Assembly: GCF_021228795.1 (NCBI RefSeq)
Contig: NZ_CP089309.1
Span: 1,922,001 to 1,986,000 of the forward strand
DNA length: 64,000 nt
Direction: 5' to 3'
DNA from: Thiocapsa bogorovii
GTDB lineage: Bacteria > Pseudomonadota > Gammaproteobacteria > Chromatiales > Chromatiaceae
In this document: one piece after another, positions 24,857 to 60,609 of the stretch
Position numbering within the stretch: the stretch's first letter is position 1
How the letters are laid out: the number at the start of each line of letters is the position of its first letter
Translations under genes and position numbers: made by a program
The notes under the pieces: generated by a model
Database searches by the model: none
The model's input: the letters and a program-made list of their open reading frames with translations, nothing else
Told to the model about the DNA's origin: nothing

Positions 24857-24938
24857 CTGTGTACTCCAGTGACTATTAGATGGGTGCTGCTGCATCAGCA
24901 AACGCCCGTTGGGCCTTCAATCGTGCCCCGCTGCCCGA

Positions 24939-24956
24939 TCAGAGCCAGGGGCGCCA
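24939..24956 (-). pseudogene. 3' remnant of a lost pufB gene
   Basis: Eighteen bases read Trp-Arg-Pro-Trp-Leu-stop, the exact C-terminus of both intact pufB genes, with 14 consecutive bases (TGGCGCCCCTGGCT) identical to them. A stop codon lies immediately upstream in this frame and nothing else of a beta gene remains between here and pufC (ends at 25120). Its distance to pufA2 matches the intact B-A spacing, so chance is unlikely. Confidence 0.6.
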
Positions 24957-25119
24957 TCACCGATCTGTTCCGCTTGACCCGATCTGCCTTGCGGCAACCT
25001 AGGGCAGCGCTTACGGGCACGGCCTGCTGAACCATCTCACCCGATGTGCGCCGGACCGAAATCCGGCGCTGCTTTTGGCCTCCCTGCCTTGTGCCGACCA
25101 GCCAAGCCGGCCGACTTGC

Positions 25120-26202
25120 TTACAACTGCTTCGGCTGGGCCGCAGGCGTTGGTACCGCCGCGGGCTCGACCGGAGCCGCTTCCTCGGGCGCCGCAATCAG
25201 GGTCGGACCTGCGAGTGCGGGGTAGTCCTTGAGCATCTGAGCACCGTAAAGCGGCTTATAAGCGCCCTGATGGCAGGTCGCGCAGCTCACACGGTAGGGA
25301 TCGCCCAGCGGTCCTTTCCGCGTCTCGGGCAACACCTCGTTCAACGGCCAGATATATTCCTGGTTGATCTCGCGCACATGCCGGATCGCATACCAAGCGG
25401 TCGTCCGCTGCGGCGTGCTTTGATCCCAGGCGAAGAAGGACCGGCTGTTGTGGCAGAAGGTGCAGTTGACGCCGAGCGAATCGGAGATCTGCATCATCAA
25501 GCCATAGGTCCACTCCGCTTGCTTGGTCGAAGCCAGGTTGCCGCTCGGCAGAGCCGAGTCGCCGATCACGCGGATCTCGTTCGCCTGATCCAAGAACGGC
25601 GTAAAGGGATCGAACGGCAAAGACGCATAGGCAACCGTCGACGAAGCAATGTTCTGGCCCGTGGGAGACACGCCTGAGGGCAGATCCGGACCGGGATCGG
25701 TCGTCCAGACATACTCAGGTACCGGCTTGCCCCGATGGCAGGTATAGCAGGTCACACCAGTGTTCGCGACATGATCCTTCCATGCGGAATTCGCTTGCTG
25801 CGTCATCTGGAACATCTTGCGAGATACGACCTTCGTATAGATGTCGTCCGACGCCCAGTTGCCGGGCACGTGGCAATAGTTGCAACCCTGCTCCGGAGCG
25901 ACCCAGGTCGTGACGGCCACCATCAGACGGGTGAAATCCGCAACGGTGAGATCACTCAGGACCTGAACGTTCTCATAGACCTCGGAGACCTTCGGCCCGC
26001 CCGGTGCTGCCGCCGGAATCGGCTCCGGAGGCTGGTTCGCTTTAAAGCTTCGAGCCAGGTCGCCGGGGTTTTTGACATGCTCCATCGCAAGACCGCGGTA
26101 ACCCAACTGGACGGTCTCGGGTGGCGGTGCTTCACAGCCGGCGACAAAAACCGAAGCGACAACAGCCGCGAGCGGGATCGACGTGTAATGAGCCATCTTC
26201 AT
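25120..26202 (-). CDS. pufC: Reaction-centre tetrahaem cytochrome c subunit
   Basis: It donates electrons to the oxidised special pair from the periplasmic side. The product has 360 residues with a lipoprotein signal (lipobox FVAGC near residue 23), so it is probably anchored by a lipidated Cys. Four haem sites are present: CNYCH, CYTCH, CTFCH and CATCH. Most have a Met upstream in helices such as KMFQMT and YGLMMQ as sixth ligand, as in the family. A Pro/Ala-rich tail follows. The start overlaps the pufM stop by 4 bp, indicating translational coupling. Confidence 0.97.
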
Positions 26203-27170
26203 TGCGAAACCCCCTGCAACATCGTCGGATCCACAGCACCTTCAAGCGGATAGACGGGAGCAACACCATGCTTTACGGCCCAAAGATACCAGTTGTCGAC
26301 CACGGTTCCGGTCAGGAGAATCCCGATACCGGCGGTGATGACCGTCAAGACCGCAAACCACCAAGCCCAGCGATGAATCGATTCCATCGTGGCATTGAAG
26401 CCCATCGTCCAGCGCCAGAAGAGAGCTGCACGCTCCGCTGCGGTGCCGCGATCCGTGATCTGGTCGATCTCTCGATCGCCGCCAAACCGGCTGACGGAGA
26501 GGATCGTCGCGCCATGCATCGCAAACAGCAGGGCGGAGCCATACAGGAACGCAATCGAGAGCATGTGGAACGGGTTGTAATAGAGGTTCCCGTACCGAAT
26601 CGAGAAGGCCGCCGTCCAGTCAAGGTGAGGGAAGATACCGAAAGGCACTGCCTCCGCCCAACTACCCATCAGAACCGGGCGAATGAAACCCAGGCTCAGA
26701 TAGAAGAAGATCGCCGCCGCAAATGCCCACGATAGCCACTGACTCAAACCAAGATCCGCAGCCCGCTTGTAGGTCCGAATCCACCAAAGGATGATGGACG
26801 TGGTCAGAAAGAATCCTGCGATCAACCACCAGCCACCATCACCCAAAGGAGGGATACTGAGGCCGTAGGATGGTGGCGGCGGCTCAAGCGCCAACCAGAA
26901 GAAGTTCTTCAGAAACTCGATTGGGCTCCAATTTACGGAAGCCGCCATGTTGAAGCCGATGATCTCGATGGCGATGAAGCCGAAGAGCAAGGATGCAACA
27001 CCGGTGAATCCGAGGTAGATGGGACCAATCTGAGCGTCACCGAGCTTGCCTGCCCAGTAGGAGAAGATCGGCTTGCCGATACGCGGCAGGTTGCCTTTCG
27101 GCATCGGCGTTCCGGGGTAAGCCGGAGAGCGCACCTGCACGCTTGTAAAAATGTTCTGATATTCAGCCAT
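26199..27170 (-). CDS. pufM: Reaction-centre M subunit
   Basis: The product has 323 residues with five membrane helices. It binds half of the special pair, accessory pigments, QA and the non-haem iron together with PufL. The start is [20 protein letters not shown]. The His ligands lie in [28 protein letters not shown] and [14 protein letters not shown]. The iron-ligating Glu is in the loop between helices D and E. The 16-bp gap to pufL and the 4-bp overlap with pufC fit the usual LMC unit. Confidence 0.98.
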
Positions 27171-27186: not shown

Positions 27187-28023
27187 CTACCAGAGCGGAA
27201 GCTCAAGCCACCAGTTCCACCATTCCGGCCAGCCGCGCGTCCAGAAGGGTCCGCTGATCACGATACAAACAGCGCTGAAAAACACCGCGGCGAGGGCCAG
27301 GAACAGACCCAAGCGATGGATGCCGAGTGCGCCGATGGAGTAACCGATCAGATCGCGAAAGAAGGTGTTCTCGTGCTCACCGGTCTTGACGGGCTCACCT
27401 TTCTTGGGATTCGTCACCGACAGGATGAGCGAACCGTGCATCGCCAACGCCAAGGTGGTGGTGAAGAAGAAGGTGATCGCCAACATGTGGGCCGGGTTGT
27501 AGTGGAAGTGCAGGTACTGGTACCCGACATTCGATACCCAATCCAAATGGCTCAGAATCCCGTAGGGGAAACCGTGACCCCACGCACCCATCAGGATGGG
27601 ACGAATCACAACCAAGGTGACGTAGGCGCCAATGGCGAACGCAAATGCAAAAGGAACATGGAAACCGATCCCGAGCTTGCGAGCGATTTCGACCTCGCGA
27701 AGTGCCCAAGAGACAAAGGCCCCAATCGCGCAAACGGTAATGAACTGCCAGAGACCGCCTTGATCAAGCGGGGCCATTCCAAGCCCATAGCTCAGATCCG
27801 GTGGAGCGATGTTGATCTGCCAGATATTGAATGTCTGAAGCTCGGGACTCGGGCCCAGGGTGGCACCCCAGACGATCAAGAGCGTACCTAATATGGCGAA
27901 AAAGAGCGTAGCGACCCCGAAGAAGCCGACGTAAAACGGCCCCACCCAGAAGTCGAATAGGTCGCCCCCTATCAGCGTCCCGCCACGGACGCGGTATTTT
28001 TTCTCAAAACTGAGCATGGCCAT
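27187..28023 (-). CDS. pufL: Reaction-centre L subunit
   Basis: It has 278 residues and starts [20 protein letters not shown], as in other purple bacteria. The five helices include [14 protein letters not shown] with the special-pair and accessory-pigment His, [14 protein letters not shown] with an iron ligand, and [17 protein letters not shown] with the second iron ligand. It pairs with PufM in the core of the type II reaction centre. It follows pufA1 after a 115-bp gap containing stem-loops. Confidence 0.98.
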
Positions 28024-28138: not shown

Positions 28139-28351
28139 CTATTGCCTTTGCGGCACAACCGGCGTCACTTGCATCTGGCTGACCGCGGACTTCGCCGGGA
28201 CGCCATCTTCGAGCCAGTTGAAATCTGCAGTGCTCAGCAGAATCATATGGATCGCCAGACCAAGGACAATCAGGAATGCAAACAGCGCGATCAGGATGCG
28301 GCGCGGATCCATGATCAGCCAAATTTTCCACAAGCTTTCAGTCGAGAACAT
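28139..28351 (-). CDS. pufA1: Light-harvesting 1 alpha subunit, first copy
   Basis: The product has 70 residues and begins [20 protein letters not shown], with the His ligand in LAIHMILLS followed by [10 protein letters not shown]. It differs from pufA2 and pufA3 at the N-terminus (MFSTES versus MHK) and is the likely main LH1 alpha around the reaction centre, since it is paired with pufB1 directly ahead of pufLM. A C-terminal tail of about 22 residues is polar and Gln/Val/Pro-rich. Confidence 0.96.
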
Positions 28352-28431: not shown

Positions 28432-28575
28432 CTACAGCCAGGGGCGCCACAGCCAAGCAAGGATGTGAGCAACGATGACGATCCCAAAGAACGTGGTCAT
28501 GCTCTGCACGAAAATGCCATGGAACTCTTTCGCTTCTTCTTCGGTCATGCCGGACATGCTGGTGTTTTCAGCCAT
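28432..28575 (-). CDS. pufB1: Light-harvesting 1 beta subunit, first copy
   Basis: This 47-residue beta polypeptide starts [20 protein letters not shown] and ends [12 protein letters not shown], with the conserved His pair. It is the first gene of puf. Its ATG is preceded by CTACTGGAGGAT, with GGAGG as a good ribosome site. Upstream lie a structured leader and then an IS1380-type element that interrupts the path to the promoter. Confidence 0.96.
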
Positions 28576-28640
28576 TGATCGATCCTCCAGTAGGAGATGA
28601 ACCTAAGTGACGCCGCACCGACCCCGTGCGGCGGGGGTTT

Positions 28641-28764
28641 CGTCGCGGACCAATGGACCGCGACGGAGAAGCTGATCGAAACGCCCGAGCAACTTCTCGA
28701 CTCAATCGTCCCGACGAGAGGGACGGGCAATTCATGTCGAGCGGAGCAGTCACTTCGCTCGACA
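28641..28764 (-). promoter_or_regulatory. Structured leader upstream of pufB1 (two stem-loops)
   Basis: Two perfect hairpins occur in the 355 bp between pufB1 and the IS element: CGTCGCGG/CCGCGACG around a 9-nt loop (28641-28665) and TGTCGAGCG/CGCTCGACA around a 12-nt loop (28735-28764). Both would form in the puf transcript. No open frame of interest (for example pufQ) is present here. A role in mRNA stability or translation is an inference. Confidence 0.5.
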
Positions 28765-28930
28765 GACAACACCGGCCAGTGCTCGGCGAAAGACCTCGCC
28801 CGTGGACCTCGACCTCCGAGGGTATGTCTAGCGACGCCGACGGCAGTAAGTCCGGAGCGTCGAATCGTAGATTGTTCAGGTCGGGTCTCACGGGTCCGGT
28901 ACGAAAGCCTTGCAGGGTGACTGGATTTAG

Positions 28931-30664
28931 CCCGAATATTTCATAAAAAAGGGCGACTCTCGTTCAACCCATTGATAAAATGGCTGTTCCGCCAAGAACG
29001 CTTCGGAAGAAGCTAAACGAGGTCGCCCATGCCCGAGTCTACCCCGGAACAGCTGCGTTTTCCCCCGGTCGCCGGTTTCACGGTCCGCGGCGACTTCGAC
29101 GGCGGCGCCATGTCGTCTGACTTTGGCCCCATGATTCTGCGCGGGGTTGATCGGCAGATCGGCCTGACCGAGCGGTTGAGCGCAGCGATCGATGATTGGC
29201 GCCATCCGTCCTACACCACCCATCCGATGCGTGAGCTGATCGCGCAACGGGTCTACCAGATCGCCTGTGCTTACGAAGACGGCAACGACGCCAATGCGCT
29301 GCGCCGTGATGCGCTGTTCAAGCTGGGGCTGGAGCGCAAGCCGCTGGATGCGACGACGGACCTGGCCAGCGGGCCGACCTTCTCGCGTTTGGAGAATGGG
29401 GTCGGCGCGCGCGACCTCTACCGCATGGCGCAGGCCTTCGTCGAGGCCTTCATCGCCAGCTACCCGAAGGCGCCGCAGGTGATCGTGCTCGATATGGACC
29501 ACTCCGAAGACGCCACCCATGGCCAGCAGGAGTTCGCGTTCTACAATCATCACTACGGCAACCATTGCTACTTGCCGCTGTTTCTCTTCGAGGGCCTCTC
29601 GGGGAAGTTCATCACCGCGGTGCTGCGTCCCGGCAAGCGCCCCACCGGCGCCGAGAACGCGATGATCCTCAAGCGCGTGCTCAAGCGGCTGCGGGCCGCG
29701 TGGCCACGCACACGCATCATCCTGCGCGGCGACGGACACTTCTCCAACCCCGAGTTGATGGCCTTGGCGATGGCCGATCCGTTGACGGATTTCATCTTCG
29801 GCCTGGCGGGTAACCGGGCTCTCACGCCACGGGCCGAGCCGTTCTTGGCCGACGCCCGCAAGCTCCATGCGCTGCGCATCGAGAACGCCCGGCGCGCCGA
29901 CGCCGACGTACCCGAGCGGACCCGCACCTACCACGAGGTTGACTACCGTGCCGGTTCCTGGCCCGGCGCGTGTCGGACCATCCTCAAAGCCGAGGTGACG
30001 GCGCGCGGCGACAACCTCCGCTTCGTCGTCACCTCCTTGGACTTGCCCAGTCCCGAGTGCGTCTACCGCGATCTGTACTGCGCGCGCGGCCAGGACGAGA
30101 ACTTCATCAAAATGATCAAGAACGATCTGGCCAGCGATCGCACTTCCGACAGCACCTTCTTGGCCAATCAGATGCGCTTGTTCTTCTCCTGCGCCGCTTA
30201 CGTCTTGCACCAAACGCTGCGCACCGAGGTCCTCGTCGGCACGGAACTGGCCAACGCCCAGCCTGCCACCGTGATCATCAAACTGTTCAAGCTCGCCGTG
30301 CGCGTGGTGCAGTACAAAGACCGCGTGCGCCTGCACCTGCCCTCGAGCTGTCCGGTCAAGACGCTGTTGCAGCAGGTCACCGAGAGGCTCTTCAACGCGC
30401 AGCCCGGGCGGCGCCCGCCTAGACGCACATACATCCCCGCACGGGGATTTCAGCACGCGCACGACGACTATGCCCACCTCGGGCAGGGCATCGTACGCCT
30501 GCGCGGCGACAAAACTACTCGTGCCCCGTTGATCAAGCCCGTTGCCGCTCGGTATTTCCACCATTCAACCCCCGCGGCGTCCCGGTCATCGCCCTCGGTG
30601 ACGCCCAGCGCCGCGCAAATCCGCGAGGCCAGTGTCGGCTGTGTCGGTTTATGAAACATCCGGG
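28931..30664 (+). mobile_element. Complete IS1380-family insertion sequence (1,734 bp)
   Basis: The left end reads CCCGAATATTTCATAAA and the right end, on the reverse strand, CCCGGATGTTTCATAAA (15 of 17 identical), forming terminal inverted repeats. The element is flanked by the direct repeat TTAG at 28927-28930 and 30665-30668, a 4-bp target-site duplication as expected for IS1380-type transposition. It contains one intact transposase gene on the plus strand, opposite to puf and bch transcription. Ends, duplication and gene all appear intact, so the insertion looks recent. Confidence 0.85.
29029..30654 (+). CDS. IS1380-family transposase
   Basis: The 541-residue protein is uninterrupted. 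DDE residues are in VIVLDMDHSEDATHG (first Asp), IILRGDGHFSNPELMALA (second Asp) and YCARGQDENFIKMIKNDL (Glu), the spacing and flanking residues of the IS1380 (DDE_Tnp_1) group. The N-terminal half (GLTERLSAAIDDWRHPSYTT and the HPMRELIAQRVYQIACAYED block) is typical. The C-terminal 90 residues after LPSSCPVKTLLQQVTERLF are Arg/Pro-rich and may be an extension. It ends 10 bp before the right end of the element. Confidence 0.92.
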   Translation: MPESTPEQLRFPPVAGFTVRGDFDGGAMSSDFGPMILRGVDRQIGLTERLSAAIDDWRHPSYTTHPMRELIAQRVYQIACAYEDGNDANALRRDALFKLGLERKPLDATTDLASGPTFSRLENGVGARDLYRMAQAFVEAFIASYPKAPQVIVLDMDHSEDATHGQQEFAFYNHHYGNHCYLPLFLFEGLSGKFITAVLRPGKRPTGAENAMILKRVLKRLRAAWPRTRIILRGDGHFSNPELMALAMADPLTDFIFGLAGNRALTPRAEPFLADARKLHALRIENARRADADVPERTRTYHEVDYRAGSWPGACRTILKAEVTARGDNLRFVVTSLDLPSPECVYRDLYCARGQDENFIKMIKNDLASDRTSDSTFLANQMRLFFSCAAYVLHQTLRTEVLVGTELANAQPATVIIKLFKLAVRVVQYKDRVRLHLPSSCPVKTLLQQVTERLFNAQPGRRPPRRTYIPARGFQHAHDDYAHLGQGIVRLRGDKTTRAPLIKPVAARYFHHSTPAASRSSPSVTPSAAQIREASVGCVGL

Positions 30665-30669
30665 TTAGG

Positions 30670-30713
30670 TGTCAGTCTAGCTTGACTGACGTAGATGTCA
30701 ATCTACATTTACA
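30670..30713 (-). promoter_or_regulatory. puf promoter region with paired PpsR/CrtJ boxes
   Basis: Two palindromes of the PpsR/CrtJ type lie in tandem: TGT-N12-ACT at 30670-30687 (one mismatch) and TGT-N12-ACA at 30696-30713 (perfect), separated by exactly 8 bp, the spacing reported for cooperative CrtJ binding. On the minus strand a sigma70-like promoter overlaps them: TTGACA, 16-bp spacer, TAGACT, pointing toward puf. The predicted start (about 30667) falls in or next to the IS target duplication. Binding by the PpsR encoded at 59185 is inferred. Confidence 0.7.
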
Positions 30714-38409: not shown

Positions 38410-38453
38410 TGTAAATATTAGTTGACACTTGTAAGTGTCATGTACAATAGACA
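38410..38453. promoter_or_regulatory. Divergent crtE/crtD control region with two PpsR/CrtJ boxes
   Basis: Two perfect TGT-N12-ACA palindromes occur at 38410-38427 and 38436-38453, separated by exactly 8 bp, the same geometry as at the puf promoter. On the plus strand TTGACA (38422-38427), a 15-bp spacer and TACAAT overlap both boxes and would drive crtD-crtC; the reverse direction could serve crtEF and the bchCXYZ run. This is the arrangement known for CrtJ-repressed crt promoters, so aerobic repression is expected. Confidence 0.8.
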
Positions 38454-59184: not shown

Positions 59185-60609
59185 GTGAGTCCGTTCAGAG
59201 CCCCGAAGGAATCGTTCGGCACCCTCGATGCCGAAACGGCGGCGGCGCTGGTTGAAGGCGCAACCGACATCGCGGTCGTGGTGGACCAGGCGGGCATCGT
59301 CTGCGACATCTCGTTCGGCAGCGAGGATCTCTCGAGCGAGCTCACCAGGGACTGGATCGGACAACCCTGGCTGACCACCGTGCTCCCGGAGAGCCGCGCA
59401 AACCTCGAAGCCTTGCTCAGCGAGGCATCCGGGACCCGCGTCACCCGATGGCGCCAGGTCAACCATCCCTCCGTGCGCGGGACCGATATCCCGATTCAGT
59501 ACAGAGCGTTACGTTTGGGAACGAGTGTCGTGGCACTGGGGCGCAACCTCCAGGGCATGGCAGCCCTGCAACAGCAGCTCGTCGATGCACAACAAGCCCT
59601 TGAGCGCGACTATTGGCGATTCCGGCAGGTCGAGACCCGGTATCGATTACTGTTTCGTATGGTTTCGGAGGCCATCCTGATCATCGATGCGCCGACCCAG
59701 CGGGTTGTCGAGGCGAATCCGGCCGCCGGACAGCTCCTCGGCGAATCGCCCACACGTGTGATCGGCCGTCCCTTCCCGGAAGGATTCGACACCGAGGGCA
59801 CACAGTCGATCAATGGTCTTCTGGCCGGCGTCCGGGCCGCCGGTCGGGCGGACGACGTGCGGGCCAAGCTCGCCGACGGCATGCAGGAGTTCTTGGTCTC
59901 GGCCTCCCTGCTGCGTCAGGAAAACCTCTCTTTTCTCCTCGTGCGGCTGTCGCCGATCGTCGCCGAGAGTGCCACCTTTACCCTCCCGGAGAACCGGGCG
60001 CGCTATCTCCGCGTCCTGGAGAACGCACCGGACTGTGTCGTGATCACGGATGCAGACGGACGCGTCTTGAGCGCCAACAACACCTTCTTGGCCTTGACCG
60101 AGATCGCCGCGGAACAACAGGCGCGGGGCGAATCGCTGGACCGTTGGCTCGGACGTCCGGGCGTCGACCTGAATGTGCTGATGGCGAATCTGCGCCAACA
60201 CGACACGGTCCGCCTCTTCGCGACCACGTTGCGCGGCGAATATGGATCCACGACCGATATCGAGATCTCGGCCGCCGCGGTTCGCAACGGGGAGCGTCCC
60301 TATTTCGGCTTCTTCATCCGAGATGTCGGTCGCCGGCTGCATGCCGAGCAACCGACGAGTCCGGAACAGCCTCGCTGGCTCGATCAGCTTACGGACCGGG
60401 TCGGGCGGGTTCCCCTCAAGGAGTTGGTGCGCGAATCGACCGATACCATCGAGCGCCTGTGTATCGAGGCGGCACTGAAACTGACCGGAGATAACCGCGC
60501 CTCGGCGGCCGAGTTGCTGGGCTTGAGCCGCCAAAGCCTATACGTCAAAATCGACCGTTACGGCATTTCCGACCAAGCAGCCGAGCCATCGGCGCCATCC
60601 GACAAGTGA
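59185..60609 (+). CDS. ppsR: Transcriptional repressor of photosystem genes
   Basis: It is the PpsR/CrtJ repressor of bch, crt and antenna genes. The GTG at 59185 (VSPFRAPKESFGTLDAETAA) gives 474 residues, close to the usual 465; the frame upstream to 59035 is Arg-rich and unlike the family. PAS domains lie at about 20-130, 150-270 and 270-390, with a helical Q-linker (QQQLVDAQQALERDYWRFRQ) after the first. The C-terminal Fis-type HTH is RASAAELLGLSRQSLYVKID. Cys426 (ERLCIEAAL) matches the redox-active Cys of the DNA-binding domain in CrtJ and PpsR. The stop overlaps bchG as GTGA. Targets with 8-bp-spaced boxes lie at 30670 and 38410. Confidence 0.94.
   Translation: MSPFRAPKESFGTLDAETAAALVEGATDIAVVVDQAGIVCDISFGSEDLSSELTRDWIGQPWLTTVLPESRANLEALLSEASGTRVTRWRQVNHPSVRGTDIPIQYRALRLGTSVVALGRNLQGMAALQQQLVDAQQALERDYWRFRQVETRYRLLFRMVSEAILIIDAPTQRVVEANPAAGQLLGESPTRVIGRPFPEGFDTEGTQSINGLLAGVRAAGRADDVRAKLADGMQEFLVSASLLRQENLSFLLVRLSPIVAESATFTLPENRARYLRVLENAPDCVVITDADGRVLSANNTFLALTEIAAEQQARGESLDRWLGRPGVDLNVLMANLRQHDTVRLFATTLRGEYGSTTDIEISAAAVRNGERPYFGFFIRDVGRRLHAEQPTSPEQPRWLDQLTDRVGRVPLKELVRESTDTIERLCIEAALKLTGDNRASAAELLGLSRQSLYVKIDRYGISDQAAEPSAPSDK

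Follow-up and report, generated by a model that had tools for sequence, protein, structure and literature searches.

Insertion of an IS1380-family element where puf transcription is expected to start in Thiocapsa bogorovii BBS

Introduction

Strain BBS is a type strain used in hydrogenase and sulfur research. It is a strain of Thiocapsa bogorovii, once named roseopersicina, and its genome sequence is CP089309.1 (PMC10892978). The genome consists of one contig of 5,649,927 bases, of which a window of 64,000 nucleotides (positions 1922001 to 1986000) was analyzed here; coordinates below are those of the window. An insertion sequence (IS) present in this window separates the antenna and reaction-centre genes of the puf operon from a promoter with PpsR-type boxes, raising the question of how puf is transcribed. 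Insertion of an IS into a promoter is a common event, but this case is informative because the element occupies the start of the sole reaction-centre operon in a strain that was grown in the light. A literature search of titles and the starts of abstracts found no paper on an IS at a puf promoter, and a search for puf start sites found no relevant paper among those listed. In sections 4, 8, 11 and 15 and part of section 27 of PMC10892978, the words "insertion" and "mobile" are absent and "transpos" occurs once.

Results

The minus strand of the window carries, in order, crtE, crtF, bchC, bchX, bchY, bchZ, an interrupted region and puf, with gene names taken partly from Table 4 of PMC10892978. 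Domain and profile matches identified pufB1 (28432-28575), pufA1 (28139-28351), pufL (27187-28023), pufM (26199-27170) and pufC (25120-26202), all on this strand. The nearest named match to PufL was from T. marina (98%), in a comparison that may omit entries from the BBS genome itself. The order of the extra pufB and pufA genes was read at six loci with a pattern script. The first extra pufB, in the pufB2 place, seems to be missing after pufC in BBS (24902-25119, minus strand), and the order 3′ of pufC is A-B-A in both BBS and T. roseopersicina DSM 217 (L024); the order is B-A-B-A in KS1, M. gracile and A. palmeri, and the first B is present in T. marina too. A whole-genome search detected a single pufL and a single pufM. 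The sequenced DNA was derived from a colony cultivated under anaerobic, photoheterotrophic conditions (PMC10892978, section 4). As the source cells were phototrophic and pufL and pufM are single-copy genes, puf works despite the insertion. In Table 4 of the same paper, the gene between pufB and bchZ (LT988_08890) is labelled a pseudogene, and from the gene order we infer that this gene is the IS1380 transposase of the window.

The interrupted region contains an IS1380-family element of 1,734 bp (28931-30664, plus strand), delimited by transposase models, inverted repeats and a target duplication. The transposase frame (29029-30654, plus strand, 541 aa) matched the IS1380 model NF033539 with 397.4 bits, against a cut-off of 180, and matched PF13701 with 501 bits over the complete domain. 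The terminal inverted repeat, as is typical of the family, comprises 20 nt with 85% complementarity when the outer target bases are included; inside the element, 15 of 17 positions are complementary by eye. TTAG is present on both sides, at 28927-28930 facing puf and at 30665-30668 facing the promoter. The original prediction of an IS1380-type element with a clean TTAG duplication and good inverted repeats was thereby confirmed. The BBS genome contains 29 copies of this IS with identities of 99.88 to 100%, every one of which is flanked by matching 4-bp sequences, in keeping with the short duplications of IS1380 elements. The duplicated sequences were CTAG (15 copies), TTAG (5), CTAA (3), CTAC (2), ATAG (2), CTTG (1) and TTAA (1). 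A full copy was absent from all 10 other genomes of the genus that were searched, and fragments were detected in G007 (606 bp at 94%), G003 (28 bp) and G004 (37 bp). The near identity of the 29 copies and the absence of a full copy from these 10 genomes indicate that the element probably multiplied recently within the BBS lineage.

The length of the transposase frame varied among the 29 copies, being 541 aa in 12, including the puf copy, 464 aa in 16 and 545 aa in 1. The C-terminal tail of the puf copy is out of frame relative to the 464-aa form, and this changed tail renders doubtful the earlier description of the element as intact. Five copies were inspected for a homopolymer difference, and CCC was present in the puf copy, L002 and L131, with CCCC in L007 and L014; a residual homopolymer error within the repeat is as likely an explanation as a real change. 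Four copies (L002, L011, L131 and L133) have an identical right flank, ctagatccggcagt, and are therefore probably located in copies of another repeat.

The locus was compared with those of 15 relatives, comprising 10 members of the genus, G014 of the same family, Marichromatium gracile, Thiorhodococcus drewsii, Allochromatium palmeri and Chromatium okenii. In none of these genomes did the puf-upstream query align over its IS portion. In the closest congeners, both flanks aligned side by side with an overlap equal to the duplicated bases, and most congeners have a single TTAG at the corresponding position. This comparison showed that the element is missing from puf in 15 of 15 and that the BBS flanks match an empty site. 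An assembly error placing the IS wrongly at puf might be favored by the 29 genomic copies and by a mean Nanopore read of ~1.9 kb (calculated from PMC10892978), which is near the length of the IS. Such an error is, however, very improbable because matching 4-bp duplications are present at 29 of 29 copies, and the puf flanks fit the empty site of relatives. Another explanation is a mixed population, wherein uninterrupted chromosome copies, or cells lacking the insertion, provide puf while the assembly shows the other allele. Recent IS activity, as suggested by the near-identical copies, would be compatible with such a mixture, but the DNA source was a colony grown phototrophically and this explanation is improbable.

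The puf promoter, TTGACA-N16-TAGACT, is located on the far side of the element (30674-30701, minus strand), with the −35 element at 30701-30696 and the −10 element at 30679-30674. With a sigma-70 weight matrix, this promoter scored 14.2, a value exceeded by no minus-strand site in the window and reached in 2 of 2,000 shuffles of its 76-nt surroundings. An upper PpsR-type box, TGTAAATGTAGATTGACA, with an exact TGT-N12-ACA pattern, is present at 30696-30713, and a lower, degenerate box, AGT-N12-ACA, overlies the −10 element at 30670-30687 (both minus strand). A spacing of 8 bp separates the two boxes, which cover the −35 and −10 elements in a paired operator layout of 18+8+18 bp. The TGT-N12-ACA pattern alone was no rarer in the window than expected by chance (5 found versus 4.99 expected), and the significance of the puf box derives from its conservation in 14 of 15 relatives. 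TGTAAATGTAGATTGACA was exact in these 14, with G014 lacking the box, and AGTCAAGCTAGACTGACAC over the −10 element was invariant in an alignment of BBS with the same 14 relatives. The paired operator with TTGACA-N16-TAGACT was likewise kept in 14 of the 15 relatives, representing five genera, so that the predicted PpsR-type promoter is supported, the lower box being degenerate.

Between genera, the upstream sequence and most of the leader were unconserved, except for ~15 nt immediately following the core and a block beside pufB; the T. marina row of this alignment, overlong as pufB was missed by the script, was retained. The ~15 nt after the core (AATCCAG-N-CACCC, 28910-28926) are fairly conserved between genera and are now 1.74 kb from the promoter. 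A pattern combining TGT with the −35 and −10 elements was detected, within the first 9,000 bases, in 12 of 80 PufL-matching loci. It was ~0.8 to 1 kb before pufL in eight of these loci and 5.5 to 6.2 kb before pufL in the other four (L041, L082, L089 and L094), a distance indicating that in the latter it is not at the puf start. The −10 region of BBS (30670-30687) also forms a palindrome, GTCAGTC-N6-GACTGAC, which could serve as a non-PpsR operator, as an alternative to the degenerate PpsR box. A second box pair with equal spacing was found near crtE (38410-38453), and two matches above the cut-off to TIGR02040, a PpsR-type regulator, were detected nearby, one of them in the window at 59251-60567.

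The boxes of the mapped Rhodobacter capsulatus bchC promoter extend from −47 to −30 and from −21 to −4 (PMC5362033). As the puf layout matches this promoter, the native +1 would, by analogy, be expected at 30666, inside the TTAG duplication on the promoter side; the earlier estimate was a start at about 30667, in or next to the duplication. The −35 element, the −10 element and both boxes are on one side of the IS and the leader is on the other. Separation of puf from its PpsR-type promoter by the IS, as originally proposed, is supported by the comparison with the 15 relatives.

At the end of the element facing puf, a hairpin (28951-29028) is followed by U6 (28950-28945), a terminator-like arrangement (28945-29028, minus strand) for transcripts that exit the IS in the direction of puf. 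The predicted fold had a free energy of −37.7 kcal/mol and a z score of −5.6, with 0 of 200 shuffles matching it. Read on the plus strand, the stem extends as far as the start codon of the transposase gene, whose likely −10 element is located in the loop. This hairpin with U6 may terminate read-through RNA; the loop is ~50 nt with inner hairpins, and hence termination may be weak. A terminator scan limited to loops of 3 to 8 nt found none in the IS. In order to compare left ends across IS1380 elements, 13 loci were taken, 12 of which had an N-terminal match; exclusion of L125 and L165, in which the 5′ arm is absent, and of L170, which duplicates L150, left nine, or 10 with the BBS element. A hairpin with a z score of −3 or lower was present in 8 of 10 but not in L150 (−0.9) or L160 (−1.5), and the U run was missing from the left end of L148. 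The arms varied in sequence but remained complementary and ended 0 to 6 nt before the transposase start, as placed by alignment. A left-end hairpin reaching the transposase start was observed in BBS and in L146, L148, L151, L152, L154, L159 and L171. Such a hairpin is not known to have been described for the IS1380 family. The folding pattern is read as a putative conserved device that blocks incoming external transcription and that in this orientation would be located between the old promoter and puf.

These structures bear on read-through, in which transcription of puf from the native promoter would cross the IS, lengthening the leader by 1.74 kb and preserving PpsR control. The promoter is complete and scores highest among minus-strand sites in the window, and an antisense frame of 545 aa covers most of the IS. 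C-rich, Rho-type stretches were considered and rejected as a barrier, C exceeding G in 22% of the windows along the read-through RNA versus 38% in puf itself; the RNA thus has no C-rich, G-poor excess relative to puf. Set against read-through are the hairpin with U6 at the exit from the IS and 1.7 kb of RNA without known translation, and we consider this route unlikely but deserving of some weight.

Members of the IS1380 family such as ISEcp1 and ISPme1 drive neighbouring genes via outward promoters (PMC9330008). Scoring of the left end of the BBS element detected a candidate outward promoter, TTGAAC-N18-TGAAAT (28938-28967, minus strand), but its score was reached by 581 of 2,000 shuffles of the same 75 nt and it is only a weak candidate; for its two versions, 13 and 14 minus-strand sites in the window scored higher. 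At the right end, searched in the manner of ISEcp1, there was nothing convincing, the best score being 7.9 versus 14.2 for the puf promoter. A complete outward promoter scoring above chance was found at neither end. The puf leader (28576-28926, minus strand) was also examined for a pre-existing promoter that could drive puf. Alignment and scoring detected nothing conserved or strong; the best site, GTGAGA-N16-TACGAT (−35 at 28891), scored 7.8, and 68 minus-strand sites in the window scored higher. While this one weak site is compatible with a leader promoter, the lack of a second conserved promoter in the alignment speaks against one, and this source of puf RNA has little probability. A search of Rfam produced a single match (E value of 0.91; 16.2 bits versus a gathering score of 38), which was taken as chance.

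Discussion

These analyses demonstrate that one copy of a recently multiplied IS1380 element has inserted at the expected start of a conserved CrtJ/PpsR-type puf promoter. The reading that we favor, which is about as probable as all of the others together, is that puf transcription begins at the IS end or slightly below it and is uncoupled from PpsR. RNA from the old puf promoter would run antisense through the transposase gene and mostly end at the hairpin-U6 facing puf, although some read-through may add to puf transcription. Transcription from the new start would be largely independent of PpsR, and the crtE end of the bch/crt cluster would retain a paired site of its own (38410-38453). The puf leader would be nearly native if transcription began at the IS end. 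This favored start is supported by the empty site in relatives, the conserved core, the hairpin, the phototrophic culture, the single pufL and pufM genes, the duplications at all 29 copies and the presence of an outward promoter candidate at the IS end; it is weakened by the many shuffles that matched the outward candidate, by possibly weak termination, by the nonsignificant hairpins of L150 and L160 and by the missing U run of L148. The original prediction had left several routes to puf expression open. Its suggestion of altered control remains plausible on these sequence comparisons, while the hairpin-U6 argues against simple read-through, the leader is without a conserved promoter and the IS promoter is at chance level.

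A more far-reaching proposal, to which we assign a low probability, is that puf is naturally uncoupled from PpsR and that the stranded promoter makes an antisense RNA that could act in trans on all 29 copies, tying transposition to oxygen and light. BBS may run puf without its normal oxygen-controlled promoter, and if puf no longer uses its native promoter, photosystem regulation in BBS is not representative of the genus. The locus is also a natural experiment in which a pigment-gene promoter retains its PpsR-type pair and the antenna and reaction-centre genes are severed from theirs. The left-end hairpin, furthermore, suggests a testable rule for the effect of IS1380 elements on genes on that side.

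Hairpins of the IS10/IS50 type act against transcription from outside the element. Like these, the BBS stem would mask the start of the transposase gene in transcripts initiated outside the IS; unlike these elements, which belong to other families, the reverse strand of the BBS element also gives a hairpin with U6. The BBS element shares its transposase family and inverted repeats with ISEcp1 and ISPme1, with duplications of 4 bp here. Those elements act, in described cases, from the 3′ end, whereas puf is at the 5′ end of the BBS element, where there is a hairpin and no convincing outward promoter. The promoter itself resembles the CrtJ/PpsR-controlled bchC promoter of R. capsulatus, as described in PMC5362033, in having two boxes 8 bp apart over the −35 and −10 elements, but differs in that the lower box of BBS puf is AGT-N12-ACA and that an IS separates the promoter from its operon.
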